A stretch of DNA of 64,000 bases, taken from positions 2,914,001 to 2,978,000 of the forward strand of contig JAYXKI010000002.1 of assembly GCA_037892935.1 (NCBI GenBank), written 5' to 3'. The stretch is from Phlebopus portentosus. Taxonomy: Eukaryota; Basidiomycota; Agaricomycetes; Boletales; Boletinellaceae. Every line of letters starts with the position of its first letter. Positions within the stretch are counted from its first letter, which is position 1. Under the pieces are notes generated by a model, which saw nothing but the letters and a program-made list of their open reading frames with translations, ran no database searches and was not told where the DNA came from. Made by a program: the position numbers and the translations under genes. Of the stretch, positions 14,895-52,671 are shown in pieces.

Positions 14895-17186
14895 ATGTTC
14901 ACTTCCGAAGAAATCGTCGCGCTCTTGGGACCCATCAACTCCGATGACGACTGGAAGGCAGCGGTCGCGAAATTCGAGGCAGACGTCGCCTTGGCCAGGT
15001 CGGCAATGGATGAACTAGACCATGGCGTCACGACGGTAATTCTGCCGGATAAGACAAAACCGGTCGAATGGATCGCGCCTACAGGTTCGATGACGGTTCG
15101 GTGGTTGACGAATCCGGTGATGGAATCTTTGATGGATGGGTGGAAGGCAACCACGGTGCGTAAACCGCGCACTCTAATCAAGAATTTTTGTTAACGAAAT
15201 TCGACAGGCACGGAAGGAAGCGTTGGAGCAAGTCCGTCCCAAAGGAACGAAAGAAGTCTGGTCGGAGACGGCGTACTCCAACTACTGCGACACGGACGCT
15301 CTCCTACGGACGCTGTACTACGATCGACGGGAATTTTACGCCAGGATGGAGACCAAACGACGAGCTTTCTTCCGCAGACGCAGGGTTCCATTCCATCCTG
15401 CCTCGTTCGATTCGATTCGTGGGTTCTTCTTGGGCGAATCGTTCCCTCCAATGTTCCCGAAACCGCGCCCTGACATCGAAAAGGCTCTCGAGAACGTGAG
15501 AATGGAGAGCTCCAAGTTCCAACAAACGGCGAGGTTCACCGGCAACACGGACTACACGCGAGACGAAGCTGTCCGGAGTCACGTAGGTACTTCTTCTTGT
15601 CTATCATCTCCATCTAATCCTTCCTACAGCAAGCGTTCGAATATTGGGAGGATATCGAGCAACGACACCTTCGTGCAGGGCACATCCTTCGCATCGACAG
15701 GGTGAAATTGAGAACGGTCCGGCTCCTCTGGGAATACTACGGCTATTCCATCCTTCGTCGTCGGCTCTATCAACTCGTTCGTGCTCAGGAATCCGAAACG
15801 CAACAACAACAACAGCAACAACAACGATCCCAACAAGTGCTGTCTAAACCTTTCTCTCAACCGCAACAACAACAGCAGCAACAACTAATGCTGCCTGAAC
15901 CATTTCCTCTGCAACAACAACAACAGCAGCAACATCAAATGCTGCCTCAGGACGTCGATAGTCTAATGGAGGTTGATTCCGCTCCTCTCCAGGTCGAAAC
16001 TGGCGAAACGATTGAGGACGGAGAGGTCGCGGAACCGGTCGAAACGCTCGAAACCGGAGCGGAACGTTTGGAGGGGGCTAGCCGTTCTACACCCTTAACC
16101 TCACTCAAACCTACAATGCTCGAGATTGAGCTTCGCGAGAGTGAAAGACGAGAAGAAGAAGAACGCGCTGCTCAACGCGCCGAAATCTCCCGGATGGCTG
16201 CCGAAATCGAGGCCAACATGCGACGACGACTGGATGCAGGGACTCGCCGCGTTCGTGGTGTTCGGCAAGTGGTGGACTCGGACGAGGAGACTCCTGCGAT
16301 TCAGGAAAGTCCTGAGAGTCCTCCTCCTGGTCATCGGGGAGAAGACTCCGTTGTCATGAGTCCAGGCGACGGCGGAATGGATATCGGTGATGTGGGAATG
16401 GAGGCGAATGAGCCGTTTGAGGCGGACGCAAGCCTTGAAGAGATTCAGGCTCTCAATACCGCGAGCAACAACAACAACAGCAACAACAACAACAACAATA
16501 GCGGTACTGCTGCTGTTCCGCGCGAAACTGTCGAAACGCAAGCGAGACGCGTTTCTCCGGCACGGCGAGCGTCTTCTCAACCTGAGGCTGGTCCTTCTAG
16601 GATTCCGGCTAATGGTGGTGGTTCTGGTGGTGACGACAACGATAATGACGACGACGACGATGACGACGACGACGACGACGAACGATTGAGCGATGGGCGC
16701 GTTCGTCATCGGGTTCCGTGCGACCAGTGCCAGAAGCGTGGCCGTGATTGCGTGGGTCTTCCGCAGAGGACCTGCGCTCCGTGCTTGAAGCAGGCGAAGG
16801 GCTGTAGTCTAGCCACGAAGGGCAGGGCTGTAGCCGCGAAGCGTAAGGCAGCTCGGGAGGCGCGCGATCGGGAAGCAAAACGCCGGAAAGTCACGGCTCT
16901 GGCGGCCAGATCGGTGGGTGGTCGCGTCGAGCATGAAGCTCTGCAGCGGGAGGTCGGGGAATCCGAGCTGCAGTTCGTGCTGGCGCGGATGGATCACCGG
17001 GACAAGGTCCTGTCCCGGATGCTGAACGAATTCAGCGTCCTCGTAGCGCAGGCGCACGCGGATCGTCGTCTGCTGCTCGAGTTGGCTGGGGTGAAGACGG
17101 GGGAAGGTGAAGACGAGGAAGAGGAAGATAGAGGGGAAGTGGAGAGGGTTCGTCAGTCGAAGGGGAAAGGTAGGGCTCGGGAATAG
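14895..17186 (+). CDS. Antisense Zn(II)2Cys6-type zinc-cluster/coiled-coil protein of element B
   Basis: Three exons, 14895-15155, 15208-15582 and 15630-17186 (introns 52 and 47 nt, GT-AG), give 730 aa on the strand opposite gag-pol. N-terminal ~270 residues are helical and charged (FEYWEDIEQRHLRAG, LWEYYGYSILRRRLYQL). Then come Gln repeats, an Asn repeat and a long Asp run, and a cluster CDQC-x6-C-x7-CAPC-x6-C (residues 576-604: C576, C579, C586, C594, C597, C604), the spacing of Gal4-type binuclear zinc clusters. A basic stretch (KRKAAREARDREAKRRKV) and a C-terminal helix (LQFVLARMDHRDKVLSRML) follow, as in DNA-binding plus dimerisation modules. The gene starts 129 nt inside the 3' LTR and converges on pol (446-nt gap). 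The ORF is intact while pol is broken. The DNA-binding role is inferred from spacing only. Confidence 0.8.
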
Positions 17187-17631
17187 AGTATAATCGTCGT
17201 GTATGCTCTATGTCCTGGTCGGACTTTTGTAAAATAGAAAAAGAAAAGGACAAAAGAAAAAGAAAAATAACTTGTACTGTACATAGTTGTTTTTATAGTT
17301 AATTTATACGATTTTGTTTCGGTTTTTGTGAATTTTCGTGCGATCGAGCTAGACTGAGTGAAGGCTAGAAGAATAGATCAAAGAATTCAAGGAATAGGAT
17401 GAAAGGAAACTGATACGAAGTGAATTGAGGCGTTTCGCCGTCGTTCCGCTGTTTTGAACGGCGAAACCGTGCGGAACTGCGTATTAAGTAAAGTACACGC
17501 GTTAGATCCTATTGTGGATCACGCTAGCAGAGACGAAACTATAGAAGGAGAATTGGAAGATTAGAATTGATCAGAGGAGAGAGAGAGAATCGGAAATAAG
17601 TAAGGAGCATATATGAAGGAAAATGAATGAT
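17187..17631. other. Convergent spacer between zinc-cluster gene and B pol
   Basis: 445 bp with no gene. A/T-rich just after 17220 (AAAATAGAAAAAGAAAAGG...), likely 3' ends of both transcripts. It holds the motif cluster GTTTCG, GTTCCG, CGAAAC, CGGAAC at 17425-17480. Confidence 0.5.
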
Positions 17632-20600
17632 TTAATCGGAATTTTGGGACTCATCGTCAGGGAATTTCTCTGGCGAATCTTCTATTTCGGGTATGTCATC
17701 ATCTTCGTCCGATCCAATGAGCTTGGTCACCGGAACAGTCAAATGCGAACGCGGGAAGTACGGAACCAGGCGAAACGCTGCTATTCGGAGTTTCGAAACC
17801 GCTCCATCGAGTTCGGCGACGATATACGAACCGCCTTGGGTGCGTCGAACTACCACGTAGGGGCCTAAATAGCGGGGTTTCGTTTTACGATTGAGTTCCA
17901 TCTTGATACGCGTGTTTCGCAAGAGTACGAGGCTTCCTGGCTGAAAGTCGTAGTCCTTGATTCTATGCTTCTCCACCTCGGCGAACTGCTTCGCGTATGC
18001 ATGCCTTGCATTCATGACGAGTTTCGCAACGCGATCCAACTCTTCTGGACGTTTCTGGAGTTGTTTCGCACGTATTACGATGAGTTCCGACGTCGTAATT
18101 GGCGAATCGAGCGGCGGTGCTAGGTATGTTGCTTCTGCGAGGTCGAAAGGCAAAACTGCTTCGACTCCATGGGCCATGTAATACGGGGACATTCCTGTTG
18201 CTCTGTTGATCGTGATTCTTTCTGCCCAAAATACCGAGTCAGCGTGATCACTCCAACGCTTGTCATTACCGTCTGCAGCTTTAATCAAGGCTTCCTGTAC
18301 GTCGAAATGTCTGCATTCGACTAATCCATTTGCGCGTGAGTTGTATGACAAAATCCGAATGTGGTTGATGTGATACCGCGTCTTCAAGTAATCTAGCGCG
18401 GCAATGAATGGTGTGCCATTATCTGTAACGAGTTCGGGGCATGCTCCATATCAACACAAAAGGTTCTGGAAGATAAACTGGCCTACGGTCTTACCAGTTT
18501 CTTCACGAAGAAGTCTAAATTCGGGATACGCGGTTAACGAACAACGCGCATGCACGATATACCGGAATCCACTCGATTTCGGCATAACCTTCGAGTCAAT
18601 ATGGATGCGTTGAAACAGAGGGGCTACCTCCGGTACGTTCGGTGGGATAAGAATATTCTTCGTCTGGCGTATCTGGCACTCATGACAGGTGCGCACGAAA
18701 TACTTCACGTCCTGTCCTAAGGACGGCCACCAAAATCTCTCCAGCAGTCGCATTCGAGTGCAGAAAATTCCTTTGTGTCCTAGATCGTCGTGAGCTTGCT
18801 TGACTAGGTCCCATCTGCGTTTCGCTTCTATTACGACTTGGTGCCGGCCGTTCCGCGCTTTTCTCCACAGACGGCCTCCTTCACGAAGAAGTCAGCTGCG
18901 TACCTGATTAGCTTCGCATAGCCACTATCGCTAAGATTGTCTGGGCGTGTGAGATGCGTGATTAGCTTCGTGACGTCATCTAAGCGGCTATCCTTCCTTC
19001 TCGCGGATTCCGTAGAAGGAAATAGGTCCTTGGTCGCTGTTTCGCTAGGTGTTCCGCCCTGTTGCGCTACTTGGTATGTCGAAACCGGCTCTTCTATCGC
19101 AAAACCGTACGTTTCGTCTACCCAGTCTTCGTACGTTTCATCCGGAGGGGGGTCTTCTTCAGCTGCTCTTCGTCTGGATAATCCATCGGTACATCGGAAA
19201 TCGGCTGCTGGGATGTGTCTGAGCTTGAAACTGAAGAGAAGGATACCTGCGATCCATCTGTTAATGGTCGCATTGGGCTGCAGGTCGGGATTGTTGATCA
19301 TCCCCTTGATGTATGCTGCGTCCATTTCGACTACTAGATTCCGGACTCCGATGAGATACAGTCGCATCGCGTGCAATGCTCGAAATAAGCCGTATAACTC
19401 GATTTTCGGCTGTGAATACGATGCCTGGGTCTGATTCCAGTTAATAGAGCCGAAACGATTGATCCTTCGCCTTCCATCCGAGTGCTCTTGTCCTAAATAC
19501 CAACCAACTCCAATAATAGACGAGTCTACCGCCAATATTACTTCGTTGTCTGACGCGTAGTCGATTGCGCACAGCGCCGGGCAAATAATAACGGCTTGCT
19601 TTAGTTCGTCCATTGCGTTCTGTTCTTCGTCTGTCCACGCGAAAATCTGGTTCTTCCTTGTCATGCGGTACAACGGGCGAGCGAGTTTCGAATAATCCCT
19701 GACGAAAATCCGAAGGACTCCTACCGTTCCCAGAAATCCTCTGACTTCGGTCAGCGTTCTACATGGCGGCCAATCTCGTATCTTCTGTACTTTCGAATCG
19801 TCTGGCTCGCGTCCCTGGTACGTCAACTTGTGTCCAACGAATACGGCTGACTCCACACACGGAACCAACTTCTTTCCTGAAAACGTTCCTCCTACGGCCT
19901 TCATTCGCTGCAAAATTCTGTTCACATCGCATATATGCTCATACACGAAACGACGAATCTCGGAGTTTCCCGGTATGGTCTCGTACGAACCGTCTGGTAG
20001 CTCGTATCGCGATTTCGGACCTAAACCGGGCGCATCGTCTGCGAAAGGGTTCGTAACGTGCGGAATCTCGTCCTGAAGGATAAAGGCCACATCGTTATGC
20101 ATAATCTGCAAGGAATTGGTGTATCCCATTGGTAGAACCGTCATTCGAAATGTTCCCAAGGGTGTCTGAAACGTAGTAAGATCTCGAGATTGTTCGTCCA
20201 GCTTTCTTTGGTCGAATGCCACGAATAAATCCAACTCCGTGTAACAAGCTCGTCCACCACTGCTCTCCGCGATCGTTTCGACGTTCGGTGGTACTGCCGA
20301 GTCCTTGACCGTAACCGCATTAAGATCCTGCAAGTCGATAATGGATCGTAACGTTTCCTTGTCTTTCTTTACCAAGCAAAACCATCTAGATCGATACGAC
20401 GAATTCGACGGTTCAATAACCCCGTTGCGAATCTTCTCTCGAATAAGTTCGAGGGCCTTGTCATGAATTCCCGGGGGAATCGGAATGCTCTTGTGCTGCC
20501 ACGGTATATGCGGTATCGTGGGAATGCGTATCGGGTCGAAATACGTCGGATCGAGTGTTCCGCGTTCGGATTCGGTCCATGCTAATGCTTCTTCCTGCAA

Positions 20601-21014
20601 CATAATTAGATTCTTCACTAACAACCTCTCCGCCGGCCACAGAAAGGTATTCTCGTCGATCTTCAGCGCTTCCATCCTTTCGGCGGTTACACGACCCGTG
20701 GGTTCGAACGGCTTCGGTACAACTGGCATCTCGGGCATCCCTCTCAACGGATCCGGATGCTGCCTTCGAACAATCCTGTACTCTTCTGGAAGGACTCCCG
20801 GGATCGGCCTGACTTTCTGCGCTACTCGTTTGTAAGCCATTACTGCCGCGTCTTCTTCTTCTGGGGTTTCTAAAACACATGAACGATATGACCGTTCTTC
20901 TTTGTCAGTAGTATAGCAATTTTTGTTTAATAAATAAGGCAATCGTTGGTTGAAAAGAGATGGGATCATGTGTGAGATAAATTCGAAATCATAAGAAAAT
21001 ACCTGAACCGGCAA
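17632..21014 (-). pseudogene. Element B pol (RT, RNase H, integrase), frameshifted and nonsense-mutated
   Basis: RT region: SNSSYRSRWFCLVKKD, CYTELDLFVAFDQRKLD, FRMTVLPMGYTNSLQIMH, and a catalytic box reading NPFADD where element C has PYIDD. RNase H-like LAVDSSIIGVGWYLG and YIKGMINNPDLQPNATINRW follow. Integrase: HDDLGHKG, CHECQ, first Asp HIDSKVMP, second Asp ELVTDNG, Glu NGLVECRH, then LNRKTKPRYLGPYVVVRR. Two lesions: near 18888 a missing base shifts the frame (FFVKEAV instead of FLREGGRLWRK), and TGA at 18453-18451 replaces a codon at the Arg of element C's SRWGR, consistent with CGA>TGA. There is no AUG at the start; the open frame runs back past the gag stop at -1. No chromodomain. Confidence 0.85.
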
Positions 21015-21052
21015 TTGGTTACTACCATTCTCGTCTCGCCGATTTCTCTCAA

Positions 21053-23446
21053 TCAGTTCCTCGACGCTTGCGGAAAACCCTTTGGAAGTGGTCCTCGCGC
21101 GATCGTTCGAATTCCGGTGGCCACTTTGCTTTGCTTTCTGCGATCGTTCGGGTCCGTTAAGGTGATATGTTGGTCACCTGACGTGTAATCCTTCGTTTCG
21201 CACTCCGTAATAGCGAAAAACGGTCTCCCCAACAAAGCCTGGAAGGGAGCGTTCGGAACGACTTGCACTTGGAGCGAAACGTCGATCCCGGCTATCGTGA
21301 ACTTCGCATTAGAGATCATGCCAATGGTAGATGACCTAGCTGCGTCTGCTGTCTCGAGGATCATTCCTTTGTCAGGGGATAGGGGTATCTGAAGCTTCTC
21401 CCACACGTCTTCGCGGAGCAGACACACTACGGCTCCCTGGTCGAGCACGCATTCGACTTCCAGAGTGTCTTCAATCAACGCGCTAACGGTCCTGAGGGGC
21501 ATGGATGCCTCTGCGGCAACGCCTTGTCCACTGAGCGCCAGTATTTCCTCCGTCGAAAGCGTTTCGCCTGTTTCGACTTGTTCCGACACGAAACACCCAA
21601 CTTGTAACGTAAGTGAATCATCTACGACCTCACCATATTTGACTTCAGCCGCGTTGTATCTCTTCGCCGTCGTCAGCTCCTTCATCTGTTTCCTAACGTC
21701 CAGGGCGATTGAGAGGAGTTCTCGTTGGCTGATGGTGATAGGGGTATCGAGGGTACGAGTCAGAACATTGGAGACTGCGCTCGAGTCTTCTATTGGTACG
21801 ACGTATTTATACTGGGGTTGTGATTTCCTGGTAATGTCGTCCTGCTGCGGTGACTGGAGTGACCTTGTCGAGGGCCGCACGCCACTCGGTGGCGCGGGCT
21901 GCGGTTTCGCCTGCGCCTTCTTACGAGGCTGAACTCTAGGGATCTCTACGCTATCGGGCTTCGTTCTTCGTCCACCAGCTGCCTTCTTCTTTGCCTCGTT
22001 AATCAAAATCTCCAAATGTTCGATGTCGTAGTTTTCCTGCTCGTCCTGATCTTCTTCGTCGTGACTATATGCGTACGCTGGACCAGCTTGATGGCTATAT
22101 GCGGGCGTGACCGACTCGACCATTCCTACTGTGTGTGTTGCCGGAGCTTTAGCGTGAAAGCTATCGATTCGTTCTTTGAGATTGTTCCCCGGTAGCGACC
22201 TTGTAATGAGACCGCCGTTCGGCAACACAATCCTTCCATCCGGGCTCCTAACGCACTTTCCGGCTTGGATGTACTCGAGAACCTTCGTACACGATCGAAT
22301 ATAGTGTCCTGCTTCGCCGCAGAAGTTGCAAACTGGGTTTCGCGGAGTTTCGCTGCGTTCCGTCCCTGGTCGATGCGGAACGTTCCCTTTGCTCAGGGCA
22401 TCGAGCGTAACCTGGAAACTCTTCAACGTATCCATTACCTTGGCCAAATCCACTTCTTCCTTCTTTACGATACTTGTCGAAGCTTCTCCGGTAGCTGGGG
22501 GTGGAAAGTTACTGCCGAAACTCCCCACAATCTTTCCTCCCAGCACGAAATTCGAATGCTCGAGAACGTCTTTAATCTTGTAAGGCGTAGATGAATCGTG
22601 GTCTGGTAGCTTGATCTCGATACGACGAATGAGCGCCTCTCTAAGGTCTCCTGTAATTCCCATCAGGAACATCTCGTCAGCTTGGGACTCCAAGATCTTT
22701 CCGTTCGTTATAAGATACTTAGAGCGCCTGACGAATTCTCGATGATATTCGCCTAGGTCTTCTCGGTTCTTGATCCCTTTCTTCGCCCGTTCTACGACCA
22801 AATGCTCCAGTTCTCCCTTGGAGTAGCGTTTCCCTGCCGTGAGACTCGGGTATAGAGCTATAATCTCTCTCTTCACCGTCTCCACATCAGGGTTCGGGTC
22901 GTTAATCTCGTCGGTAGTCTCCCAAAGTTCCGCGACGTCGGTCTTCGCATAGTACAAGAACTTTCGGACGTGATCTCTATCGTTCCACGCGGCCTGTCTT
23001 GCGATTTCTGCAACGTCTTCGAAGAACCTAGGGAGTTCCTTTGGTTCTGAGCCGTCAAACGTTGGGGCACGTTTGTCCCCACGCGAGGGCGGTTGGTACG
23101 CCATTGCGGTTTGTCGATTTGTAAGTTGTTGTAATACGTTAGCGTTAGCAGACAGACGAGCTATTATCGCTGCGTTGCTGGCTAAGATCTGTTGAGTTCC
23201 GGTAGGTAGTTGGTAATTGGTAGGCGGGCTAGCTGGTCTGTTCGGCGAGCCTGGGGTGGAAGCTGGCACAGATGAGAGGTTGGGGAGTTCTGAATCGGCG
23301 ATGGTAGATGGGGAATGATCTAGGGAATCGGTGTTGGAAGGAATGGCGCTAACGGATTGTCGCAAGGGTGTTTCGCTGTGTTCCGCGTTTTCCGCAGCGG
23401 AACGTAAGTTGCGATTGACAATCCTCGGCCTTCGAGTCGGCGGCAA
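21053..23446 (-). CDS. Element B gag-protease
   Basis: 797 codons, uninterrupted. A Ser/Pro/Thr-rich N-terminus is followed by a capsid-like helical region (DVAEIARQAAWNDRDHVRKF, VVERAKKGIKNREDLGEYHREF), a CCHC zinc knuckle CNFCGEAGHYIRSC, and a C-terminal retropepsin-like domain with the active-site variant VLDQGAVVCLL and the flap/ALLGRPFF segment. Element C shows the usual DSG there, so DQG may be altered activity. The listed start is a non-AUG codon; the frame is open back to the PBS (23565) without ATG, so initiation may use an upstream spliced exon or a non-AUG codon. The stop TGA (21055-21053) is followed by pol in the -1 frame. Confidence 0.85.
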   Translation of the reverse strand: MPPTRRPRIVNRNLRSAAENAEHSETPLRQSVSAIPSNTDSLDHSPSTIADSELPNLSSVPASTPGSPNRPASPPTNYQLPTGTQQILASNAAIIARLSANANVLQQLTNRQTAMAYQPPSRGDKRAPTFDGSEPKELPRFFEDVAEIARQAAWNDRDHVRKFLYYAKTDVAELWETTDEINDPNPDVETVKREIIALYPSLTAGKRYSKGELEHLVVERAKKGIKNREDLGEYHREFVRRSKYLITNGKILESQADEMFLMGITGDLREALIRRIEIKLPDHDSSTPYKIKDVLEHSNFVLGGKIVGSFGSNFPPPATGEASTSIVKKEEVDLAKVMDTLKSFQVTLDALSKGNVPHRPGTERSETPRNPVCNFCGEAGHYIRSCTKVLEYIQAGKCVRSPDGRIVLPNGGLITRSLPGNNLKERIDSFHAKAPATHTVGMVESVTPAYSHQAGPAYAYSHDEEDQDEQENYDIEHLEILINEAKKKAAGGRRTKPDSVEIPRVQPRKKAQAKPQPAPPSGVRPSTRSLQSPQQDDITRKSQPQYKYVVPIEDSSAVSNVLTRTLDTPITISQRELLSIALDVRKQMKELTTAKRYNAAEVKYGEVVDDSLTLQVGCFVSEQVETGETLSTEEILALSGQGVAAEASMPLRTVSALIEDTLEVECVLDQGAVVCLLREDVWEKLQIPLSPDKGMILETADAARSSTIGMISNAKFTIAGIDVSLQVQVVPNAPFQALLGRPFFAITECETKDYTSGDQHITLTDPNDRRKQSKVATGIRTIARGPLPKGFPQASRN

Positions 23447-23546
23447 AACCTGATGTTCTACAGGGACTCGAGCGGATTGGCTACGTGTAACTCGTCTGCT
23501 AGACGAATTTGGCGGGGTATTCGTAATGGTTGGACAGTGAAATCCC

Positions 23547-23563
23547 CCTCGCCGTGGGCTCCA
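23547..23563 (-). other. Primer-binding site of element B
   Basis: On the minus strand TGGAGCCCACGGCGAGG begins 2 nt after the 5' LTR. TGG pairs with a tRNA CCA end. Element C has TGGAGCCCACCGCGAGG in the same place. The tRNA was not identified. Confidence 0.75.
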
Positions 23564-23565
23564 CT

Positions 23566-25193
23566 TGAAACTCCTGTGGACGTTCTGATGCCGGACAGGG
23601 AGTGTATAGTTCGAGGGGCTGCCCTAGAATACCTTCAAACGGTCAGCAGAGAATTACACCCGAGCTAAGGGCACGAAGGAGTGGAGGGAAATAGGGATAG
23701 ACAATGGAAGGGCTTGGTGAGGACCGGGGATGTGAGGTGAGCGCTCGAGGAGGAATTCCGAGGGTAGGCTTCTCCCGAGATCGACGGTGGCGGTGCAAAG
23801 GCTAAATCGACTCTCCGGCTCAACTGCGAGCTCTGGACTAAAGCCGACTAACCCAAGGCACAAGAACTGAACTAACTAAGCTACGCTAGTCGAACCACCA
23901 ACCCGAACGTGACTAATCGACTGTGCTAACACACTGGCAAGCGACTGCAGCCGATCTCACTCGTAGTCTAAAGTGTCGGAACGCGGCGTAACGATTCGAA
24001 ACGCGATACGATGGACGAAAGACAATTGCTGAGTGTATCGAAATGTGATGCGAGGGATGGAGGTGCAAAACGATGACGGAAGGGGACTGAGAGAATCGAA
24101 GGATATGTGTGGGACGATGGAACCGACCGTTTCCGATCGAAACGATGCGGAATAGCACCGGGCTGGTCTTGAGGAAGCGGAGAGTGGAAAGTCAAGAGGA
24201 AAGGGATGATATGGTGTCCTTTCCCGACGACAATGGAGAGGAGAAGGTGTTGCGAGACCAAATGCGGGCGGCACGCAGAGTAACTGGGTTACGAGCGAAA
24301 CCGGGCGAAACGGATCGAAACACGTGAGGGGGTCTTGTTTCGGGTGAGAGAAGATAGAGAAGCCTTTATACGATGACGGCGAACTATACGAACGCACGAA
24401 CGGCTCTACTGCGAAGAGAGATCACCGATCGACTGTACAGAACACGAAATGTCGTATATTAGACTATAGAGACGAGAGAGTCCACTACGAACAAGTAGAC
24501 TAGAGGTCGAGAGGCTTTGAGACGATGTGAGAACTGCAAGCTAAGCTCCCACTCAGCTCCGACTAAGCTGTCCCTCTACTACGAGAGTCGTGCTATATTT
24601 ATACTAAACGTCCAAGACTGAGCCTCCCAGCGGTCAGAGAACCTACGTCATAAAGAAAAGGGAACGCATATCACTATCTACAAAGGAGAGGAGCGCATAG
24701 GAATGGTTTAAGGGACACATAGGTCAAAAGAAACAATACTAAGCATGTCTGGAATGAGAGCATAATGGATTAAAGGGGACGCATATAGAAAGGTCAGAAA
24801 ATGTGCGGAACCTTCGGAACCGGGTCTCTTTGAGCGGAACGAAGCGGAACTCGGGGAAACGACTCGGAAGGGCTCTGGATAGCCTGACAAAGTAAGTCTG
24901 CGATGTTTAACAAAGGAGAGGGACTGAGGACGAGGTTGCAGGGTCAATTCTCTTTGTCTGGAACGCGGATCCGAGGTCCGGAGACTTGTGATCGACGCGT
25001 GCAAACTCGATGCCGTGATTCTCCCGTCTTGATGGCCGATCAAAGAACGGTGCACGTGCCATCTGGACTATGGCGTTCTTGCTAAGTCTACTCGTTCGAG
25101 CGAAACCAGTCGAAACCGAGCGAAACCAGTCGGAACACCGCGGAACTGGTCATAACGACTCCGTACGTTCCCAAGCTTCTGACTTACTCTTCA
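23566..25193 (-). repeat. 5' LTR of element B
   Basis: 1628 bp, TGAA...TTCA. Differences from 13139-14766 that I can find: CGCTA/CACTA, TATAGG/CATAGG, ACGAG/ATGAG, AAATC/AATTC, TCGTAAC/TCATAAC. Three of five are CpG transitions. About 0.3% divergence. Confidence 0.92.
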
Positions 25194-29743: not shown

Positions 29744-29939
29744 AATGACCTAGACGAATTCAACAACATTTTTATGAGTATCACCTTCATTTAGCGCATT
29801 ACAATAATACATGGTTTAGTAGCTAAGTTATCCAGCGAGTACCACCTCCGCTTTCCAACTAGCCACCTTACCCTTCCTCCCCGGTCGGTTCTTGGGCGTC
29901 TTTCTTTCTCCTGGCAAGCTCCCAGCTCTAAACCAGGGC

Positions 29940-32281: not shown

Positions 32282-32405
32282 TTATCGGAGATCAGCTAAC
32301 TGAATTAACAGGCACAGGAGAAACCCTCCCGGGGCAGAGCAATACTTACTGATCGATAGTGGGTATTGCACTATGAAACAGCAAGATTGATTATCCCAGG
32401 ATTGG

Positions 32406-32416
32406 AGCAAAATTAT
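32406..32416 (-). promoter_or_regulatory. Self-priming primer-binding site of A2
   Basis: Two nt inside the 5' LTR edge lies (minus strand) ATAATTTTGCT, the exact complement of AGCAAAATTAT in the LTR (minus strand, 32634-32624). No TGG-type tRNA site follows the LTR. This matches the design of Tf1, whose RNA 5' end (11 nt) primes reverse transcription. Confidence 0.65.
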
Positions 32417-32418
32417 AA

Positions 32419-40045: not shown

Positions 40046-40241
40046 AATGACCTAGACGAATTCAACCAACATTTTTATGAGTATCACCTTCATTCAGCGC
40101 ATTACAATAATACATGGTTTAGTAGCTAAGTTATCCAGCAAGTACCACCTCCGCTTTCCAACTAGCCACCTTACCCTTCCTCCCGGTCGGTTCTTGGGTA
40201 TCTTCCTTCCTCCTGGCAAGCTCCCTGCTCTAAACCAGGGC

Positions 40242-41245: not shown

Positions 41246-42105
41246 TGTTACGAAAATTGTGGATATACAATGCGGCGTGGTATCAGACGCTTTACACACC
41301 GAATTATGCAGCCCAATCCAGAGCATTTCGAAAGGCTTCAAGGACAGAATAGTGGAGACGATTCTCACCCACTAGTACAGCAAGGGCCTGGGGAGGTCGC
41401 TGTGGAATATATTCAAGAGGAACCCGATCGACGATATTACGAGGACGAATGCGACGAAAGGGAGGACCCATACGATTTACAGCAAGGACTAGCTGGAATG
41501 CATATTGGACATACTCCTCCACCCGAGCGAAGCTACGTGGACATGGAAGAACGGAACATCGCAAGATACGTGGAACTCCTGCAGAAGAGACGATATCGAC
41601 ATAGTGCAACCAGACGCTTTGTTCATGAAAGCCTGGTCTGTACAAACTGCTATTTGGCATACCAAAGGAGTTGGGTTCTTTCGGAGTGGCTCCTCAAGAA
41701 CTTCGTGGAGCGCTTAGTAACTAGGGAAGGAGCCGATGTCAAGATTCGGCATAAACCCGGACCCTCAGAACGAACGTTTGACCAACCATTACCGAACCGC
41801 GGAATGAGCGCATACGACCATGAGGTATCTGTATGGCTCGGCGATAGGGATATCTATGCACTAAAGGTTGGCGTGAGAGCTTGGATCAATCAGCATCGTC
41901 ACCAGACCTTGTGTCGAAACACTGCAGTGGAAGTCGATTGGCCGATCTATTACAGGGTGCCATCAGACGTCGAAAGTCTTATCGAAGAAGCAACGGATCG
42001 AATGCTAGAAGCATGGGAACGATCGGAAGAAGGGGTTATTACAGTCGACGAATGGTGCAGGACGAATCACCTGGGAAGAAGATACAGGTTAACGTCGGGT
42101 ACCGG

Positions 42106-43821: not shown

Positions 43822-46800
43822 TTTTGGAGCCCACCGCGAGGGAGGTAAAAAGGTGTCGTTCCAACCGATCTCAGGCCCTTCCAAGGGCACGCGATACTCA
43901 CTAAGGCTGCAAAGAAGGGCGGAAAACAGTCAAACAGCCTCAGCCACAACCGCCGGCCAACCATACCATTATTCCACACTCTTTACAAGAGGCCGAACAG
44001 AAGAACCCCGTCCCACCGCACCCAGATCTCCGTCCGCGCCGAACCGTCGACGCGCGTCCATCGCCGCAGACGACCCACCCACCCGGCGTCCCAGAAGAGC
44101 ATCTATCACTCCTTTTACACGTAACCCACCGCCCGGCGAAAGCGCAAGCACCGCCGCCGCACACCCTATATCGCCTATAATTCCCCCTCGTTTCATCCAC
44201 GTTCCTAAAGACCTCCGCGAATCCGAAATTCGCCCCAGTACTCACGTTCGTGTCCCCGGCGGCATCGAGGACCTGTCAATATCCCTCCAGGAACCTCCAG
44301 CCACCAGCCCCATCGAAACCGACCTCTTCTCCGACATAGACAACCCCCCAGATCTCCACCGCCGCACCGGCCTACAGTTATACTCCGCCGCAGAAGAACA
44401 GGAGGACGACGACCTTTACGTCCCCGACTCCCTCGTACACGGCCACGCAATCACCCCCGACTCTCCACTATCCCCCGTCGAAGAAGAGCGATCGGCGAGG
44501 CTCTCCCCACCCCCCCCTCTTACGCCGCCGACACCAGCTCAGAGGCCGCGGCTCTCCCCAATTGACAACGCCCAACCACCCACCCCCAGTACACCTCCTA
44601 AGACGGCCTCGATACCAACAATGACCAGCACCCATACCGGCATTCCCGCCGCGCCCCCCGCAGCCTCAGGATCGACCCCGCCCCCCCCCCCCCCAACAGC
44701 CGTCCCCCGCCGCACCAGCCTATGCCGCACCAGCACCAACCCCCGCGGGCGCCTTTCCCCCTCTCCCAGACCTCAGTGACCCAGATACCCATCCATTAAG
44801 TGGTCCCAACCCACCAGTGCCAGGAGCTACAATGCCCTACCCGGGAGACCGCCGTGCGCCGAAGTTCAACGCCTCCGGCGACCCCGCGGAAATCCCCATC
44901 TTCTTTAACAGAGTCCGGCTATTTGGACGAAGCGCCGGCCTAACAGATGCACAAATGATCGCTTGGGCAAGATGCTACGCCGACGCTAAAGACGATCAGC
45001 TATGGTGCAAAAGGCCCGAAACGAGAGGAAACGACTTTATGGCATTCAAAGACGCTATCCTAAAGTACTACCCAAACGCTACGACCCAGTACACACTCGG
45101 CGACCTCCACAACCTTATTAACATAAGCCGCAACCAAATTATGCTGAACACCGCCGCCCTCGGCGAATACCATAGGAACTTTATCACCGTCTCCTCGTAT
45201 CTTATCGACGCCGGCATGCTATCAGAGTTCGAACAGAAGCGTATGTTCAGAGAAGGCCTCCACCCGACGCTAAACAGAGAGCTGGATCTTAATTTGCGGT
45301 TTGTCAAGCACGACCACCCTACCGGCGTGCCCTGGGACATCGACACAGTTGTAAGAGAACTAGAACGCATCCTAACCGGCGGCCGCCTCACAACCGCCGA
45401 CCAACCACTGATGTATGCGGCGACAGCGGCCATGCCCACCTATACACAAGTTACGACGTACACGCCGCCGCCGCAGCCCGGTGCTCCGGCCTACGGAGTC
45501 ATCAACCAACCCCAGGTTAAGCAAGAAGAACCGTGGGTGTCCCTCCTAATCCAGGAAATGCGCGCCCTCCGTGAAGCCACCGAGAAGTCAAACCGCCGCG
45601 CTCCGCCGCCAACCGCAGGAGCCCTGCCGCAGCCCCGACAAGCCAGATTTAACGGAAAATGCGCCGTATGCGCCAGTGTAACGCACTCTACCCGCGACTG
45701 TCCCACCAAGATCTCCCTGATCCAGAGGGGAATCATGCTCGCCGACGCCAAAGGGTACTTGTACCCCTCCAATGGCCGACTTCCTCAGGGAGAACCGGGG
45801 ATGTCAGTACTGGACAGGATTAATAAGCTCTTCATAGAGAACCCAAACTACGCACCAGTTGGCGTCCAGCTCCCCATTCAGCCCGTATCCGACACGCCGC
45901 CGAGGATCGCTCCACCGAGGCAGGATCCCACATATCAGGGACAACCGCCGACTCAACAATCCATGTATCAGTCACACCCTCCGTCACAGGAATCTATGTA
46001 CCAGGGCCTCAACCGGGCACCGCCTCCCTTAGCCTACAATACAAATCCGCCGAACGGCCTGCCGCCGCGAATCCAGGAATCGAACTACTTCGAGGCTATC
46101 ACCCCAGAAGACCCCCCAGACGACGATGCCTGCGACGGAGTCGCGCTCCTTTTTGAACAAGAAGAATCCCCCGAACAACCGCAGAATGCCTTCGCCGCCG
46201 CCGGAAGACGGCCAGGCCCCAGAGAAGTTTTCGACGGAATCGAAATCCCCACCAGAAAGCCGCCTCGAGACCCCAACCCGAAATGGGGAGATAACAGCAA
46301 GAAGGGGAAACCACCCGGACAACGCCCGGCCCCGCCGCCGACGCCCTCGGCGCCGCACAGGGACGACGCGGCGGATCCGAAGCCGCAATACCGAACCACC
46401 GTACCAGCATACGATGACGCCGCGGTATCGAACGTTTTCGACAAGATTCTGGACTCGGAAGTCACCCTGCTGATCCGAAGCCTGCTCGCCGCCTCTCCCG
46501 AAATCAGAAAGAAGTGTAAAGAATTTGTCATGGGGCGCCGAGAACTAATTAGGGAAAATCCTGATCACGAGATGGCAATGTACGCCTCGATCCCGAGGCC
46601 CACCTCGCCGGTTAACTTCGGCGACGAAGATCCTTCCGTCGCCCCGCCGAACATTCCCCTCCGCGAAATCGAGGTCTGGCTCGATGATAAATTCGAAGTA
46701 AAAGCTTTGCTCGACTCGGGGTCGACATTTATCGCCGTGCCAAAAGAGGTATGGAAGGACCTCGGGTCCCCGACGATAATGAGCCAAGCAATCACAGTAG

Positions 46801-47084
46801 AAACCGCCGACAGACAAACCTCACGCTCGGCGGGACTCATCCCTCGCGTCAGACTCACCATAGGCGCCTTCTCTATTGTTGTCCAAGTCCAGGTCGTCGA
46901 AAAGGCCCCCTTTCAGTTACTATTAGGCCGCCCGTTTTTCGTACACACTAGGGCGCAGGTCATAGACGAGGCCGACGGCGAACAGACGCTATACCTTACT
47001 CATCCCGATACGAACGAAACCATGTCGATCCCGACGATTCAGCGCGGCGCCGGGACAGAAAAACAGCGCCCCCCTAGACAATGA
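43763..47084 (+). pseudogene. Element C gag-protease, split by a frame change at a C14 run
   Basis: N-terminal frame (43763-44779) is basic then Pro/Ser/Thr-rich, contains KGTRYSLRLQRRAE, and runs back through the PBS into the LTR without an ATG. At the C14 run (44691-44704) the reading must move to the frame of 44817-47084; one C fewer would join them. The second part has the capsid-like region (DAQMIAWARCYADAKDDQLW; LGEYHRNFITVSSYLIDAGM), zinc knuckle CAVCASVTHSTRDC (~residue 282 from 44817), Pro/Gln-rich linker, and retropepsin VKALLDSGSTFIAV (~residue 632) with QLLLGRPFFV. The run change may be a true mutation, a slippage site or a base-calling error. gag ends in ATGA, overlapping the pol ATG. 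Confidence 0.8.
43825..43841 (+). other. Primer-binding site of element C
   Basis: TGGAGCCCACCGCGAGG, 3 nt after the LTR; the same site as in element B with one difference. Confidence 0.75.
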
Positions 47085-50000
47085 CGTCCCAGCGGCGTCC
47101 GCCGGAACATATGCGGCGTATACCCCCAACCATACCCGACGCATATGTGCTCCATCACGGCCCGGCGACTGTAAATATCGCCTTCAATCCCCGCACCATA
47201 GATATCTCCACCTCATTTTCTGATCGATCCGCCGAAAAGGGTTTCACAGCCCAGAACAAAGCCCAAAAACACCCAGCCTTCTTCATTAACTCTATTTTCG
47301 ATGATGAATCACTCCCCGTACGCAACCGAATACCCCGCTCCAACAGCACTCTTAATACCACGGCCGCTCAACCGGCTGGGCACGCCTACAAGTACAAAAA
47401 GGTCGCCCAACGAACCAAACCTATATCGGCGACCCTTCCAGAGGACTACCGCATCATACGCAAATCACACCCGCAGCCGCTCACAGATCTACCGAAGCTC
47501 CCTATCGATCCGCCGGAGTTCATTCCAGGACGCCGCTTTACACAAGGGCGCTTCGACGCCCTAGACATCGACCCAACTGGCTTCCTCAGTGAGGAAGAAA
47601 AGAACCTCGCCTACTGGACCCTTCTACAACATGAAGACGGCCTAGCTTGGGACGAAACAGAAAAGGGCTCCCTCGACTATCAATACTTCGCGCCGGTTCT
47701 AATTCCTACTGTCGACCATACGCCGTGGGTAATGAAAAACATCCCTATTCCGCCGGGGATCTTCAACGAAGTGGTTCGCATAATCAAAGACAAAATTAAC
47801 TCCGGCGTCTACGAGCCGTCCAATTCCTCTTACCGCTCCCGATGGTTCTGCGTCGTTAAAAAGGATGGAAAATCCCTTCGACTTGTACACGACCTCCAGC
47901 CACTCAACAAAGTCTCCATACGCGACCCCTCCGTCCCTTACCCCACAGAACACATCGCCGAGACCTTCGGCGGCCATGCCTGCTACACCACACTCGATCT
48001 ATTCGTCGCCTTCGACCAGAGAAAGCTCGACGTACGATCCCGCGACCTCACAACATTCCAAACACCTCTCGGCGCGTTTCGCCTCACGTCGATTCCTATG
48101 GGATACACCAACTCGCAACAAATTATGCACGCCGACGTCACCTTCGTACTCAAAGATGAGATACCCCACGTCTGTATCCCATACATCGACGATATTCCTG
48201 TAAAAGGGCCTAAATCCCGATACGAGCTCGCCGCCGGAAACTACGAAACCATTCCGGGAAACCCGAACATCCGCCGCTTCATCTGGGAACATCTCAACGA
48301 CGTCAACCGCGTCCTCCAACGCCTCAAAGTAGTCGGCGCCACTGTCTCGGGTAAGAAACTCATCATCGCCGCACCAGAAGCAGTCATTGTAGGACACACC
48401 TGTAATTACGCCGGCCGAGTCCCAGACGCATCCAGGGTCAAGGCGATAATGGATTGGCCGCCGCCGCGGGATGTCCACGATGTTCGGGCATTCTTAGGTA
48501 CGGCCGGCGTCCTTAGACACTTCGTGAAGAACTACGCCAGACTATCCGCCGGTCTCAACAAACTACTCTGCAAAGACCAGCCCTTCCTATTCGACGAAGA
48601 CGCCCGCCGATCTATGGATCTACTAAAACACGCCGTAGCATCCTCCGGCGCCATTCGTTCTATTGACTACGAGTCAGGACAACCTGTTCATTTCTGTGTA
48701 GACTCCTCCGTTCATGGCTACGGCGCCATCTTGTTACAGCTCGGCGAAAACGGCGAAAGGGTCCCATCCCGTTTCATGTCCGGAACTTGGAACAACAGAG
48801 AACGAAACTACTCCCAGGCGAAGCTAGAACTCTTCGGCCTCTTCAGAGCTCTATATGAGGCGCGCATATACCTCGTTGGCATCGATCACTTTTTCGTCGA
48901 AGTCGACGCCAGCTATATTAAAGGCATGATTAACAACCCAGACCTCCAACCCAACGCCACTATCAATAGATGGATCGCCGGCATCTTACTTTTCAATTTC
49001 ACGATCATTCATACGCCGGCGCCCAAACACCTCGGCCCAGACGGCCTATCGCGCCGCGGCGCCGCACAAACCGATCCGCCGCGAGACGAAGGCTTCGAAG
49101 AATGGATCGACCATCAATACTCCTTCCTAAACCAAGACCTTTCCGACACGGCCTATACCCCAAACAGCGAACCCGTACAACTCCCCGATCACAAAGCCTC
49201 ACAAAAAGGATTCAAAGACCTCGATTGTATCAAGAAATTTCTCGCCGCCCCATCCCGCCCCGCCGATTTTTCAGACGCCCAATTCAAACAGTTCGTACGC
49301 CGAGCCACTCGTTTCTTCCTACAGCACGGTGAACTCTACAGAAAGAACGACAAAGGTCACGCCGCACTCGTTATTCCGCCGGAACGCCGAATTTCCATTA
49401 TCAGAACTGCCCACGACGAACTCGGCCACAAAGGCTTCTTCTCTGTCAGAACAACGATTCAAGACCGATTCTGGTGGCCAGGAATGCATCAGGACATCAA
49501 ATGGTATATCAGAACCTGCCACCAATGCCAAACGAGGCAGTTTACGAAAATATATACCACGCCGCAAAGCCCGACGCCCACGCCGCTATTCTCCAGGGTG
49601 CATATAGACGTCATGTTAATGCCGCCCTCCGGCGGATTCAAGTATATCGTTCAGGCCCGAGACTCCCTCACCGGATACCCCGAATTCCGAACGCTGCACA
49701 AAGACAACGCCGCCTCGATAGCACGCTTCGTTTTTGAAGATATCTTGTCAAGATGGGGACGAGTCGAGGAGATCGTAACCGACAACGGCGCCTCATTCTC
49801 CAAGGACCTACCCCGCCTTCTCGCCAAATACAATGTCCAGCACATTCGAATCTCGCCGTACAACTCAAGAGCCAACGGAATCATTGAGCGGCGACACCGG
49901 GACCTTAGAGAAACCCTAATGAAGCTCGCCGACGCAAGCCCAGACAAGTGGTCCCAGCATATATACCACGCCATTTGGGCCGAACGAATCACGATTCAAC

Positions 50001-50566
50001 GCCGCACAGGCTATAGCCCATACTTTATGGCCCACGGCGTCGAACCAGTACTCCCCTTCGACCTCGCCGAACAGACGTACATCTCGCCGGCGGTCACCTC
50101 CAAGATGTCCGACGCACAACTCATCGCGGCGAGAGCAAGGGCACTCCAGAAACGTCCCGAGGACCTCCAACGAGTCAAGGAATCCGTCATCCAGGGGCGT
50201 TTCAAATCCATACAGGACTTCGAGAAAACCCACGCCGCAACAATTAAAGATTACAATTTCGCCCCCGGCTCACTTGTGCTGGTCCGGAACTCCCAGATCG
50301 AAAACGAGCTGAACAGGAAGACAAAGCCAAAGTACCTAGGGCCCATGATTGTCGTGCGGCGAACCAAAGGAGGATCCTACGTTCTCGCCGAAGCAAACGG
50401 CGCCATTTCAGCACTTCGTTACGCAGCATTCAGAGTTATCCCCTACCACGCACGCACTCGAATCATCGACTCAGTCGAAGACCTCACTCAGAAATCCACG
50501 CCGGAACTCGACAACCTAGCACAAGAGACCGCGGCGGATGACCTAGACGCCGAATCCAACTTATGA
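47081..50566 (+). CDS. Element C pol: reverse transcriptase, RNase H, integrase
   Basis: 1161 aa, intact, ATG overlapping the gag TGA (ATGA), suggesting termination-reinitiation. RT: SNSSYRSRWFCVVKKDGKSL, CYTTLDLFVAFDQRKLD, YIDD (residues 368-371). RNase H around CVDSSVHGYGAILLQ (Asp ~540) and LFVEVD-like/YIKGMINNPDLQ. Integrase: HDELGHKGFF, CHQCQ, then Asp ~843 (HIDVMLMP), Asp ~900 (IVTDNG) and Glu ~936 (GIIERRH), 35 residues apart; the tail has LNRKTKPKYLGPMIVVRR and no chromodomain. All catalytic residues are present, so this copy could supply enzymes in trans. The apparent ORF starting at 50563 (ATGA again) is not supported. Confidence 0.93.
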   Translation: MTSQRRPPEHMRRIPPTIPDAYVLHHGPATVNIAFNPRTIDISTSFSDRSAEKGFTAQNKAQKHPAFFINSIFDDESLPVRNRIPRSNSTLNTTAAQPAGHAYKYKKVAQRTKPISATLPEDYRIIRKSHPQPLTDLPKLPIDPPEFIPGRRFTQGRFDALDIDPTGFLSEEEKNLAYWTLLQHEDGLAWDETEKGSLDYQYFAPVLIPTVDHTPWVMKNIPIPPGIFNEVVRIIKDKINSGVYEPSNSSYRSRWFCVVKKDGKSLRLVHDLQPLNKVSIRDPSVPYPTEHIAETFGGHACYTTLDLFVAFDQRKLDVRSRDLTTFQTPLGAFRLTSIPMGYTNSQQIMHADVTFVLKDEIPHVCIPYIDDIPVKGPKSRYELAAGNYETIPGNPNIRRFIWEHLNDVNRVLQRLKVVGATVSGKKLIIAAPEAVIVGHTCNYAGRVPDASRVKAIMDWPPPRDVHDVRAFLGTAGVLRHFVKNYARLSAGLNKLLCKDQPFLFDEDARRSMDLLKHAVASSGAIRSIDYESGQPVHFCVDSSVHGYGAILLQLGENGERVPSRFMSGTWNNRERNYSQAKLELFGLFRALYEARIYLVGIDHFFVEVDASYIKGMINNPDLQPNATINRWIAGILLFNFTIIHTPAPKHLGPDGLSRRGAAQTDPPRDEGFEEWIDHQYSFLNQDLSDTAYTPNSEPVQLPDHKASQKGFKDLDCIKKFLAAPSRPADFSDAQFKQFVRRATRFFLQHGELYRKNDKGHAALVIPPERRISIIRTAHDELGHKGFFSVRTTIQDRFWWPGMHQDIKWYIRTCHQCQTRQFTKIYTTPQSPTPTPLFSRVHIDVMLMPPSGGFKYIVQARDSLTGYPEFRTLHKDNAASIARFVFEDILSRWGRVEEIVTDNGASFSKDLPRLLAKYNVQHIRISPYNSRANGIIERRHRDLRETLMKLADASPDKWSQHIYHAIWAERITIQRRTGYSPYFMAHGVEPVLPFDLAEQTYISPAVTSKMSDAQLIAARARALQKRPEDLQRVKESVIQGRFKSIQDFEKTHAATIKDYNFAPGSLVLVRNSQIENELNRKTKPKYLGPMIVVRRTKGGSYVLAEANGAISALRYAAFRVIPYHARTRIIDSVEDLTQKSTPELDNLAQETAADDLDAESNL

Positions 50567-51018
50567 AGATCCGCCGAAGCCTCATAATCACCCTCTCCCT
50601 TATATACACATTCCCTAAGTCACCTATTCGGACCCGCCGCTATCTTCACTCTCTCCAATCATCACCCAAACGACTGCGGCGAGACGCCGAGTCACCCCCT
50701 CCCACATTTTCACCTTACTCAAGTCATTCTTTCGGCCCCGGCGCTATTTTTAGGGCGCCTATCCTCCCTATTTCACTCCAGCCCATCTCAATCTTACATT
50801 CCCTGATCTCACAAAGAACCATCCTCACAAGAAAAACATTCGGCTTGTTATTACAAGCCACTATAGTACACAAGAAAAAGAAAAATACAATATTTTTGTA
50901 CTTTTATATTTTTCCTATTTTTTTTAATATTTTTTTCGGCCCAAGGGCGCTTCATGGTCGCCGAAGACCGCGAGCCGACGCCGTTTGCGTCGTTTGGCTC
51001 GCCGCCTATCCACGGCGT
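50567..51018. other. Convergent spacer of element C with T-rich tract
   Basis: 452 bp between pol and the antisense gene, with A/T-rich runs at 50870-50940 (AAGAAAAAGAAAAATAC...TTTTTTTTAATATTTTTTTC), plausible 3'-end signals for both converging transcripts. Nearly the same length as the equivalent spacer in element B (445 bp). Confidence 0.5.
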
Positions 51019-52671
51019 TCACCCTGGGCCTTTTCCTCCACCCCCCCACCCGCACTCTCTCCCCGCCAACGTCGACTCCATCCCCTCCAGCTGCCGGCGG
51101 AGAGCGAGGACCTCCTGCTGCGCCAGGAAGGTCACGTCCGACTCCAAGATATCGCACCGGTGGTGCGATACCCGGCACGCCTGGCACAGGAGCGCCGGCG
51201 GGCGCCTCGTGCACACCTCCCCACGCCCGATGCACCGCTCGCACCCCGGCGACACGAACTCGAGGAGGCGGCGGCTCTGACCCCTGGGGAGCCGCCCGAC
51301 CCTCTCGAACTCCCAACCCCCCTCCTCCCTCTGAATATTATAGTCAGAGAGTGTCACGAACAAAATTCAAGACAGCACTCACCGCCCCGTCCCGTCTTCC
51401 TGTCGCCTCCTCTTTCGCCCTGCCCCCACCCGAGGCCGCCGTTCCCGGCGCTCTTGCTCGTTTCGCCGGCGGCTCGACCACCGGCTCACGTACGCGCTTC
51501 GGAAGGGGAGGCACCTAGAAACGAAACATGTCAGTGAAGAATAAGATCCAGGACATAAAACACACATCGACATATACCTCCTTTCCTCTCGACCTTTTCG
51601 CTCGCGTTGACCCCTCATCAGACTCAACCTCAAGAGTAATGGTCTTTCCCGTGACCGTCCCCGAGCGTCCCCCTCGCGTCACTCGACCACTCTCCCCTTG
51701 AGCGTCTCGCTGGACGAACCCGCCACCTCAAGACCAGGGATCGACGACCCAGGAAGAGTAATCGTCTTTCCCGTCGCCGGCCTGGCCGCGGGACGCGCCT
51801 GCACCTTCGCTTTGGTGCTCGTTTTAGGCGCCGCGACCTAAGAAGATATTATCAGAGACAGTAAAAAACAAGATTCAAGACAACGACTTACCAGGTTCCC
51901 CGCCTCATCGCGCCCTGAGGACCTACAGAAGGCCTCAACGACCTCCGGGCCCCCAACTCGCAGGGTGGCGAGCGTCTTGAGGAAGGAGGCTTTCGCCTCC
52001 TCGGCCACCTTCGCCGCGCTCCGCTTCGCCTCCTCACGAGCCTCCTCCTCCCGGCGCTCGGCCAGCCTCTCCGCGACGCGTCGGAGGCGATTCACCTCCG
52101 ACTGGGCGGCCTTGTCCAACGCCTCGGTGGCGTCCTTAGCCTCCCCGGCGGCCATCCGCACCACCGTCGCCCGGTTCACCAACCACCTCCCCGCGCAATA
52201 ATATTCGGGCTTTTCAGCCCTCGCGTCGTCGGATAGCGCGGGGAAGCGCTCCCCAAGCCCCTTCTGAAAAAGTAAACCAGATCGTCAGCTCACACGGTTA
52301 TTATCAAGGGAACGCAAATTTACCAAGAGCCCATCGAGCTCATCGGCAGCGGGCCCCTCATCGTTTCGGGCCCGCTCGATCCACCCCCTCACCGCCGTAA
52401 TGGCCGCCCACACGGCCGCATCCAGTTCTCCCCCCCCCCCCCCCCCCCCCCCCTCCCCACCCTCCTCCTCCGTCTCCCCCTGCGACTCCGGCGGGACCTC
52501 TTGCCCGCTGGGGGCCCGCGACATCCCGCCCGCGGCAGGAGCCCCCGTCGCCGCCCCGGCGTCCACCTCCATCTGGTCGGAGGGAGCCTCCGACCCCTCC
52601 CTGCTGTTGTTGCTGCTGCTGTCGCTGTCGCTGCCGCTGCTGCTGCTGACGCTGAGAATCGTCGGCGCCAT
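51019..52671 (-). pseudogene. Antisense Zn(II)2Cys6-type zinc-cluster gene of element C, one base short
   Basis: Five exons on the minus strand: 52671-52324, 52263-51892, 51837-51578, 51514-51383, 51330-51019; introns 60, 54, 63 and 52 nt, all GT-AG. Exon 1: Ser/Asp-rich, then a Gly run encoded by G24 (52453-52430). Exon 2: long coiled coil (ALDKAAQSEVNRLRRVAERL, REEEAREEAKRSAAKVAEEA). Exon 3 carries TGKTITL twice; it is 260 nt, and a TGA follows a G4 run, whereas one more G would keep the frame. Exon 5 has CERC-x6-C-x8-CQAC-x6-C (51243-51154), Gal4-type spacing, then LAQQEVLALRRQLEGMESTL. Same position, direction and cluster type as in element B, although the rest of the protein is not alignable by eye. 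The base loss may be mutation or sequencing error. Confidence 0.78.

Follow-up and report, generated by a model that had tools for sequence, protein, structure and literature searches.

Antisense open reading frames (ORFs) located between pol and the 3′ long terminal repeat (LTR), known as aORF-3R, have been described in plant LTR retrotransposons, namely, maize Grande (gene23), RIRE2, Retand, and PvRetro13, and a fungal case of an antisense ORF is brtn in Botrytis Boty (PMC7264820). In the available text of that 2020 review, no clear database similarity is described for aORF-3R, one carries an SMC domain, and the function of antisense ORFs in LTR retrotransposons is called unknown (PMC7264820). 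In this work, we analyzed a 64,000-bp window (C2:2914001-2978000) from the genome of the basidiomycete Phlebopus portentosus (38.4 Mb, 23 contigs), which contains a nest of LTR retrotransposons of families A, B, and C. Elements B and C each carry a multi-exon gene that is antisense to gag-pol, lies between pol and the 3′ LTR, and encodes six regularly spaced cysteines; both of these families are also enriched in a short DNA word of their own.

How a retroelement can escape host silencing without waking all other elements is an open question. VANDALs are DNA transposons of plants. A sequence-specific anti-silencing system has been described in these elements, and the accessible parts of the reports place VANC of Arabidopsis beside a more conserved transposase, with related families having different short target words that are often arranged in tandem (PMC5735166, PMC10398659). 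Another point of comparison is HBZ of human T-cell leukemia virus type 1 (HTLV-1), which the excerpted source describes as a spliced antisense gene expressed from the 3′ LTR, with a nuclear product that regulates its own LTR (PMC3185765).

Antisense Genes of Elements B and C

Element B is inserted on the minus strand, with a 5′ LTR at 23566-25193 and a 3′ LTR at 13139-14766 (1628 bp). The two LTRs are 99.7% identical (five differences over 1628 sites), and GCGC flanks the element on both sides. The gag/protease frame (21053-23623, minus strand) contains a zinc knuckle, DUF4100, and an aspartic protease. The pol region (17632-21173, minus strand) consists of two open pieces, one with reverse transcriptase (RT) and ribonuclease H (RNase H) at 18831-21173 and the other with the C-terminal end at 17632-18450, and is broken in between. 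On the plus strand, the antisense gene has three exons (14895-15155, 15208-15582, and 15630-17186) separated by phase-0 GT-AG introns of 52 and 47 nt, and is open in the window over 730 aa. Exon 3 encodes poly-Q and acidic tracts, a six-cysteine cluster (C-x2-C-x6-C-x7-C-x2-C-x6-C; 16719-16805, plus strand), a basic helix resembling a nuclear localization signal, and a coiled coil.

Element C is inserted on the plus strand, with LTRs at 42106-43821 (5′) and 54883-56597 (3′) that are 99.1% identical and CCGG on both sides of the element. A gag/protease frame (44625-47084, plus strand) with DUF4100 and an aspartic protease is followed by a pol frame (47078-50566, plus strand) with RT, RNase H, and integrase. 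The antisense gene, on the minus strand, has five exons (52324-52671, 51892-52263, 51578-51837, 51383-51514, and 51019-51330) joined by GT-AG introns, and the last exon encodes the cysteine cluster (C-x2-C-x6-C-x8-C-x2-C-x6-C, from 51243 down to 51154) and a leucine-rich stretch. A first-pass annotation of this DNA had described multi-exon antisense genes in both elements, with spacers to pol of 445 bp (B) and 452 bp (C), and our exon models and intron boundaries confirm this. It overlooked that the C gene is not open in the window: the frame is disrupted in exon 3, and a stop is reached after 292 codons. Six of the 24 fetched C copies are open across all exons. GT and AG are kept at all four introns in 24 of 24 C copies and at both introns in 18 of 20 B copies. 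The introns would escape splicing in retrotransposition because they are antisense to the genomic RNA, and a multi-exon gene could therefore persist in a retroelement.

Between the C antisense gene and the 3′ LTR, a 145-bp unit occurs three times (53269-53703), the later units being 93% and 60% identical to the first.

Both elements have the organization of Ty3/gypsy retrotransposons, i.e., LTRs, a target duplication, gag, protease, RT, RNase H, and integrase in this order, with the full domain set read on C and the B pol present in pieces; DUF4100 is common to both gag-protease frames. A Pfam scan found no chromodomain in the pol of B or C. Element A in the window has no antisense gene: its pol frame extends to 11374, within a repeat block ending at 11667 that is taken for its LTR.

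The combination in B of a complete antisense gene with a broken pol had been read on first pass as a hint of selection or recency. Pol is indeed broken in the window copy, but around the pol match it is open over 1180 aa at no fewer than 16 other B-type places, so the combination is a feature of this copy. The hint of selection is not supported. Recency does fit, because the B LTRs differ at so few sites.

Recurrence in the Genome and a Third Family

Searches of the same genome recovered at least 61 gene places with the B protein (61 of 185 candidates scored) and at least 33 with the last C exon; these counts, and those for family D below, are lower bounds in which the best candidates only were scored. 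In the pol-end searches, 142 candidates out of 318 and 124 out of 440 were scored. After same-place pieces had been merged by hand, the gene places of B (61) and C (33) were compared with 65 B-type of 134 and 32 C-type of 125 pol rows. At 53 of the 61 B places and 31 of the 33 C places, the gene has a matching pol end downstream of it on the other strand, which is not the random placement that would have spoken against an element gene. C hit 34 was left out of the context tally, and a further tally took 40 of 42 and 40 of 55 search rows. The locus C8:515576-515758, matched by the C exon (expect value, E = 0.077), was rejected as a relative, being without the six-cysteine pattern. At C1:2076500-2080500, an internally deleted B antisense gene adjoins the gag frame of another Ty3-type element; this locus (L066) was rejected as a pol-less, gene-carrying derivative and is a B fragment abutting a foreign gag frame.

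The pol-end search also exposed a third family, D, whose best full-length rows are ~75-78% identical to B over the integrase end, compared with ~54% for C. The D copy L054 has an antisense gene at the same site, encoding 600 aa in three exons of 82, 117, and 401 codons (87, 125, and 518 in B). The introns are in phase 0 in the gene models of all three families, as read in open copies for C. At least 38 D gene places were found, 30 of them opposite a pol end and eight with none beside them (38 merged gene places compared with 32 pol places). The D-query search also retrieved B genes (E = 6e-12 to 5e-6; 24-33% identity in the C-terminal part), and no clearly unrelated place was seen among its 104 matches. 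The gene is thus carried by all three families that the searches found in this clade. Twelve B-type pol matches, fragments included, were initially without a gene, and the D search later placed antisense genes beside four of them. As in aORF-3R, a conserved antisense gene is thus found between pol and the 3′ LTR in most copies.

Selection and Homology Between Families

The ratio of nonsynonymous to synonymous substitution rates (dN/dS) is 0.29 (interval, 0.21-0.38) for the whole B antisense gene in 18 copies and 0.43 (0.37-0.50) for the C antisense gene in 24 copies, and the corresponding values for the pol ends are 0.35 and 0.23. B loci L011 and L020, without an exon-1 match, were excluded from these and the conservation analyses, and C locus L049, a partial gene, from the C alignments. 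The remaining five readings of the same alignments gave 0.36-1.12 in B and 0.50-1.35 in C, the lowest in each family coming from the reading with the wobble position in common. An earlier run that used all 20 B loci and C exons 1-2 only gave 0.39 and 0.44, respectively. Selection was measured on B and C, and the fetched D copies are nearly identical. Antisense frames are open in 14 of the 20 fetched B copies. All six cysteines are present at every locus fetched, 21 in B, 25 in C, and 11 in D (from 10 places); these loci were chosen by similarity, with old copies outside the sample. The dN/dS values, which are well under 1, together with cysteine retention and the absence of pattern matches from simulated windows (see below), reject a chance ORF or annotation artifact.

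In a profile comparison, the C-terminal parts of the B and D proteins match with a probability of 97% (E = 7.7e-11). The case for C as a homolog of the other two is weaker: it is built on position, orientation, the phase-0 state of the introns, and the cysteine pattern, and the profile comparison is unconvincing alone (probability 16% to D and 5% to B). These sequence comparisons support an accessory gene that predates the family split and was retained by selection, much as first proposed: the retention and the strong divergence of the remainder of the protein between families are borne out, and the ancestral origin is strengthened by the same gene in D but is less secure for C.

The Antisense Protein

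Zn2Cys6 domains follow the pattern C-x2-C-x6-C-x5-12-C-x2-C-x6-8-C, and this spacing is present in the antisense products of all three families, at each locus fetched. A loose Gal4-type cysteine pattern had only two matches in the six frames of the window, namely, the B (x7) and C (x8) genes singled out on first pass, and none in 60 simulated windows (order-2 Markov). No Pfam match above cut-off was found in the B, C, and D proteins. For Zn_clus (PF00172), C scored 11.7 bits against a gathering score of 21, B and D had no match, and the 58 matches to this family in the genome all lie off the antisense genes as compared by eye. In all three families, the cluster lies toward the C-terminus and not the N-terminus, and in B and D it is followed by a basic helix and then a coiled coil. 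The earlier assignment to Gal4-type regulators is backed by the cysteine spacing and, weakly, by the predicted fold, but not by Pfam, and the cluster is at the other end of the protein.

Family-Specific Words

The first-pass observations did not include the following words, which were found in word counts for a possible target. In B, CGRAAC occurs 75 times against 19.0 expected from dinucleotides; it sits in the LTR and spacer as well as in gag, pol, and antisense exon 3, and its excess in the last three exceeds codon usage. In C, CGGCG occurs 239 times (61.9 expected), and in D, the enriched words are TGCGCAA (16 vs. 1.0), GCGCAAC (16 vs. 1.3), and CGGAAC (23 vs. 7.2). The words of the other families are near background in each family, except for CGGAAC, which is common to B and D, the closest families. 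Against codon shuffles in which the protein and its codon usage are preserved, CGAAAC ranks first of 376 hexamers in B gag and pol (z = 6.6), CGGCG leads the 471 pentamers of C (z = 15.6; 66 vs. 20.9 in the pol frame), and TGCGCA, CGCAAC, and GCGCAA are the top three of 464 words in D (z = 6.3-5.8). No word exceeds z = 4.1 in element A, and the word excess is missing from A and from the tested host stretches. Seven of eight 3.3-kb control loci (other Ty3 hits) have no CpG-bearing word in their top three; the eighth is discussed below. As described for VANC, a family-specific short word is enriched in the encoding element.

B words on the same strand are 9, 10, and 11 bp apart in 5, 14, and 2 cases, respectively, with recurrence near 20 and 30, and the best period is 10.7 in both B and D. 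One of several arrays in the B LTR has five CGRAAC at exact 10-bp steps (14674-14719, plus strand), and three at 10-bp steps lie inside B gag (22337-22362, minus strand), where the codon-shuffle control applies. Genome-wide, there are 450 phased CGRAAC triplets compared with 2 for the reversed pattern, and among the ~100 triplet places listed, all but one simple repeat resemble B arrays by eye. In the B alignment, non-CpG positions of the word differ in 5 of 2574 cells, compared with 922 of 62426 elsewhere. This low variation ranks second of 27 words, the first being a word that overlaps it, and the CpG positions within the B word are not special. The CpGs of the C word vary less than other CpGs (permutation p = 0.0014) but are not outstanding among words (7 of 31). 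Across copies of B and C (L009-L053), CpG sites have four to five times the C>T/G>A changes of other C/G sites (3.6% and 3.4% vs. 0.75% and 0.8%), which suggests that these elements are methylated at CpG.

Proposed Role and Alternatives

At the level of sequence, the gene anatomy, the antisense position in three families, purifying selection in B and C, the retained cysteines, and one word per family are established. Their best explanation is a DNA-binding regulator, VANC- or HBZ-like, that would recognize its own element, and we give it about an even chance. One Ty3/gypsy clade has a third, multi-exon gene, antisense between pol and the 3′ LTR, that under this proposal would be transcribed from the 3′ LTR side. 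The product, a putative nuclear-type protein with a C-terminal Zn2Cys6-like cluster, would bind zinc, dimerize, enter the nucleus, and bind the word of its own family, i.e., CGRAAC in B, CGGCG in C, and TGCGCAA/CGGAAC in D. Such binding would mark the copies of that family and change their transcription or silencing. By analogy, the most likely role would be VANC-like counter-silencing, followed by HBZ-like feedback control of the LTR; counter-silencing is plausible because the CpG decay suggests element methylation. The fuller version, in which the zinc-cluster protein co-evolves with an element-wide word, helically phased in B and D and reaching into gag and pol, and each family marks and activates or de-silences its own copies only, is tentative and falls short of an even chance.

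Several observations weigh against a self-recognizing regulator. Protein and word are connected by a correlation across three related families and A, which has neither. The C word has no 10-bp phasing and no extra conservation (rank 23 of 60). The structure models were built on 13 and 9 sequences with a predicted template modeling score of 0.3, and their Foldseek hits (E = 0.78 and 3.7) do not reach significance. Matches to PDB sequences are sub-threshold (E = 0.013-0.6) and include an unrelated carboxypeptidase inhibitor and a MarR regulator. In VIA-align, unrelated helical proteins score 4.0-4.4, nearly level with PPR1, and no match was obtained for the D model. The eighth control locus (L008), from another Ty3 family, has a TGCGCA excess in 3.3 kb (z = 7.6 vs. 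B's own 6.4), with no six-cysteine antisense gene in the 10 kb read (C19:557000-566999; also L068), where seven TGCGCA sites spread over ~3 kb. Finally, in the accessible VANC descriptions, the target words are in non-coding DNA, whereas the fungal words fill coding DNA too.

Among the alternatives, HBZ-like feedback at the LTR, in which the protein alone or via host factors adjusts the balance of sense and antisense transcription and the dispersed words have another cause, is rather unlikely. The position, orientation, splicing, and basic/coiled-coil nuclear design do recall HTLV-1 HBZ as excerpted (PMC3185765), and the B start codon is 128 nt from the 3′ LTR, where CGRAAC is in excess (16 vs. 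2.7). A regulator acting only at the LTR would not need the excess in B gag, pol, and exon 3, however, and 2.2 kb separate the C start codon from the C LTR.

It is unlikely that the words arise from base composition, codon habits, or nucleosome positioning in each family and are unrelated to the antisense protein. An excess that persists under protein- and codon-preserving shuffles, that in B concerns one hexamer at 10-bp same-strand spacing, that is missing from A and the tested host stretches, and that nearly vanishes when the phased triplet is reversed sits poorly with such causes, even though CpG is part of every word, element C is GC-rich, periods of ~10 bp are also found in nucleosomal DNA, and the stretch read at L008 has its excess but no such gene.

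An RNA-binding or export factor (Rev-like) or a nucleocapsid-like helper, with the cysteines forming an RNA-binding zinc module, appears quite improbable. Cysteine-rich and basic regions can bind RNA, and the CERV accessory protein of Cer1 is described, in the part of the source available, as exporting genomic RNA. The words are found on both strands (42 and 33 in B; 81 and 158 in C), which points to double-stranded DNA, and the Zn2Cys6 proteins to which the predicted fold has weak matches bind DNA. That the antisense RNA rather than the protein matters, pairing with gag-pol RNA and feeding RNA silencing or transcription interference, is very improbable: the transcript would converge on pol and the available review text raises the possibility for plant elements (PMC7264820), but a role of the RNA alone would leave no constraint tied to a frame, whereas dN/dS is 0.29 and 0.43 in one frame, most fetched B copies are open, the six cysteines are in every fetched locus, and the predicted coding part ends ~450 nt before pol.

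The Retrotransposon Nest and Its Surroundings

LTR elements are densely nested at 6894-64000, with several copies of the chromodomain element A. Some of these are interrupted by B (minus strand) or C (plus strand), with 4-bp duplications. Such a dense LTR-element nest is a layout known from fungal centromeres. Host genes with Vac_ImportDeg and FRG1 matches (309-1004 and 1765-2580) border the nest, and dispersed repeats of 64-70 bp, in families of six and seven copies, lie to the left of the elements (3067-4561). Just inside the 5′ LTR, B (~23545-23565) and C (43822-43845) have in common TGGAGCCCAC followed by GCGAGGG, probably the same tRNA primer-binding site. An Rfam scan of the window gave no matches.

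Comparison With Known Systems

The antisense proteins resemble fungal Zn2Cys6 (Gal4-type) factors in cysteine spacing and, more tentatively, in predicted fold (a weak match), a putative basic linker, and a predicted coiled coil, but differ in scoring below the Pfam Zn_clus cut-off, in the C-terminal cluster, and in being encoded by a retroelement. VANC and HBZ serve as working models and not as relatives, and we claim no sequence relation to HBZ. HBZ has a basic region and a dimerizing helix, which the basic helix and predicted coiled coil of B and D recall, whereas HBZ is a basic leucine zipper factor of a deltaretrovirus, for which the excerpted source describes neither a zinc cluster nor a dispersed word (PMC3185765). 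As with VANC in the accessible reports, the protein is encoded by the element and has conserved and highly variable parts (PMC5735166, PMC10398659). The present system, likened to VANC by description, differs in being a zinc-cluster protein of a fungal Ty3/gypsy retroelement known here from sequence. By analogy, the protein and word may form a fungal retroelement counterpart of plant VANC anti-silencing with an independent origin, a suggestion that we hold at somewhat less than even.

The brtn gene of Boty, reportedly from Zhao et al. in 2011, is similar to these genes by its described position and orientation. As outlined in the available review text, aORF-3R share the site, the orientation, the presence in most copies, and a conservation like that of other element genes, and some of their products are nuclear (PMC7264820). 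Those descriptions differ from the present genes, which have three to five exons, a six-cysteine cluster, a coiled coil (B and D), and a family word. In the open-licence literature, consulted mostly as titles and abstract openings, neither a zinc-cluster antisense gene nor family words are described for Ty3/gypsy elements. If the binding is true, these three families would be a compact fungal system in which protein and target diverged together, and the antisense ORFs of LTR retrotransposons would gain a concrete, checkable role. An antisense ORF at this site is already known from plants and from Botrytis Boty, and what is new here is the element-wide word of each of the three families.

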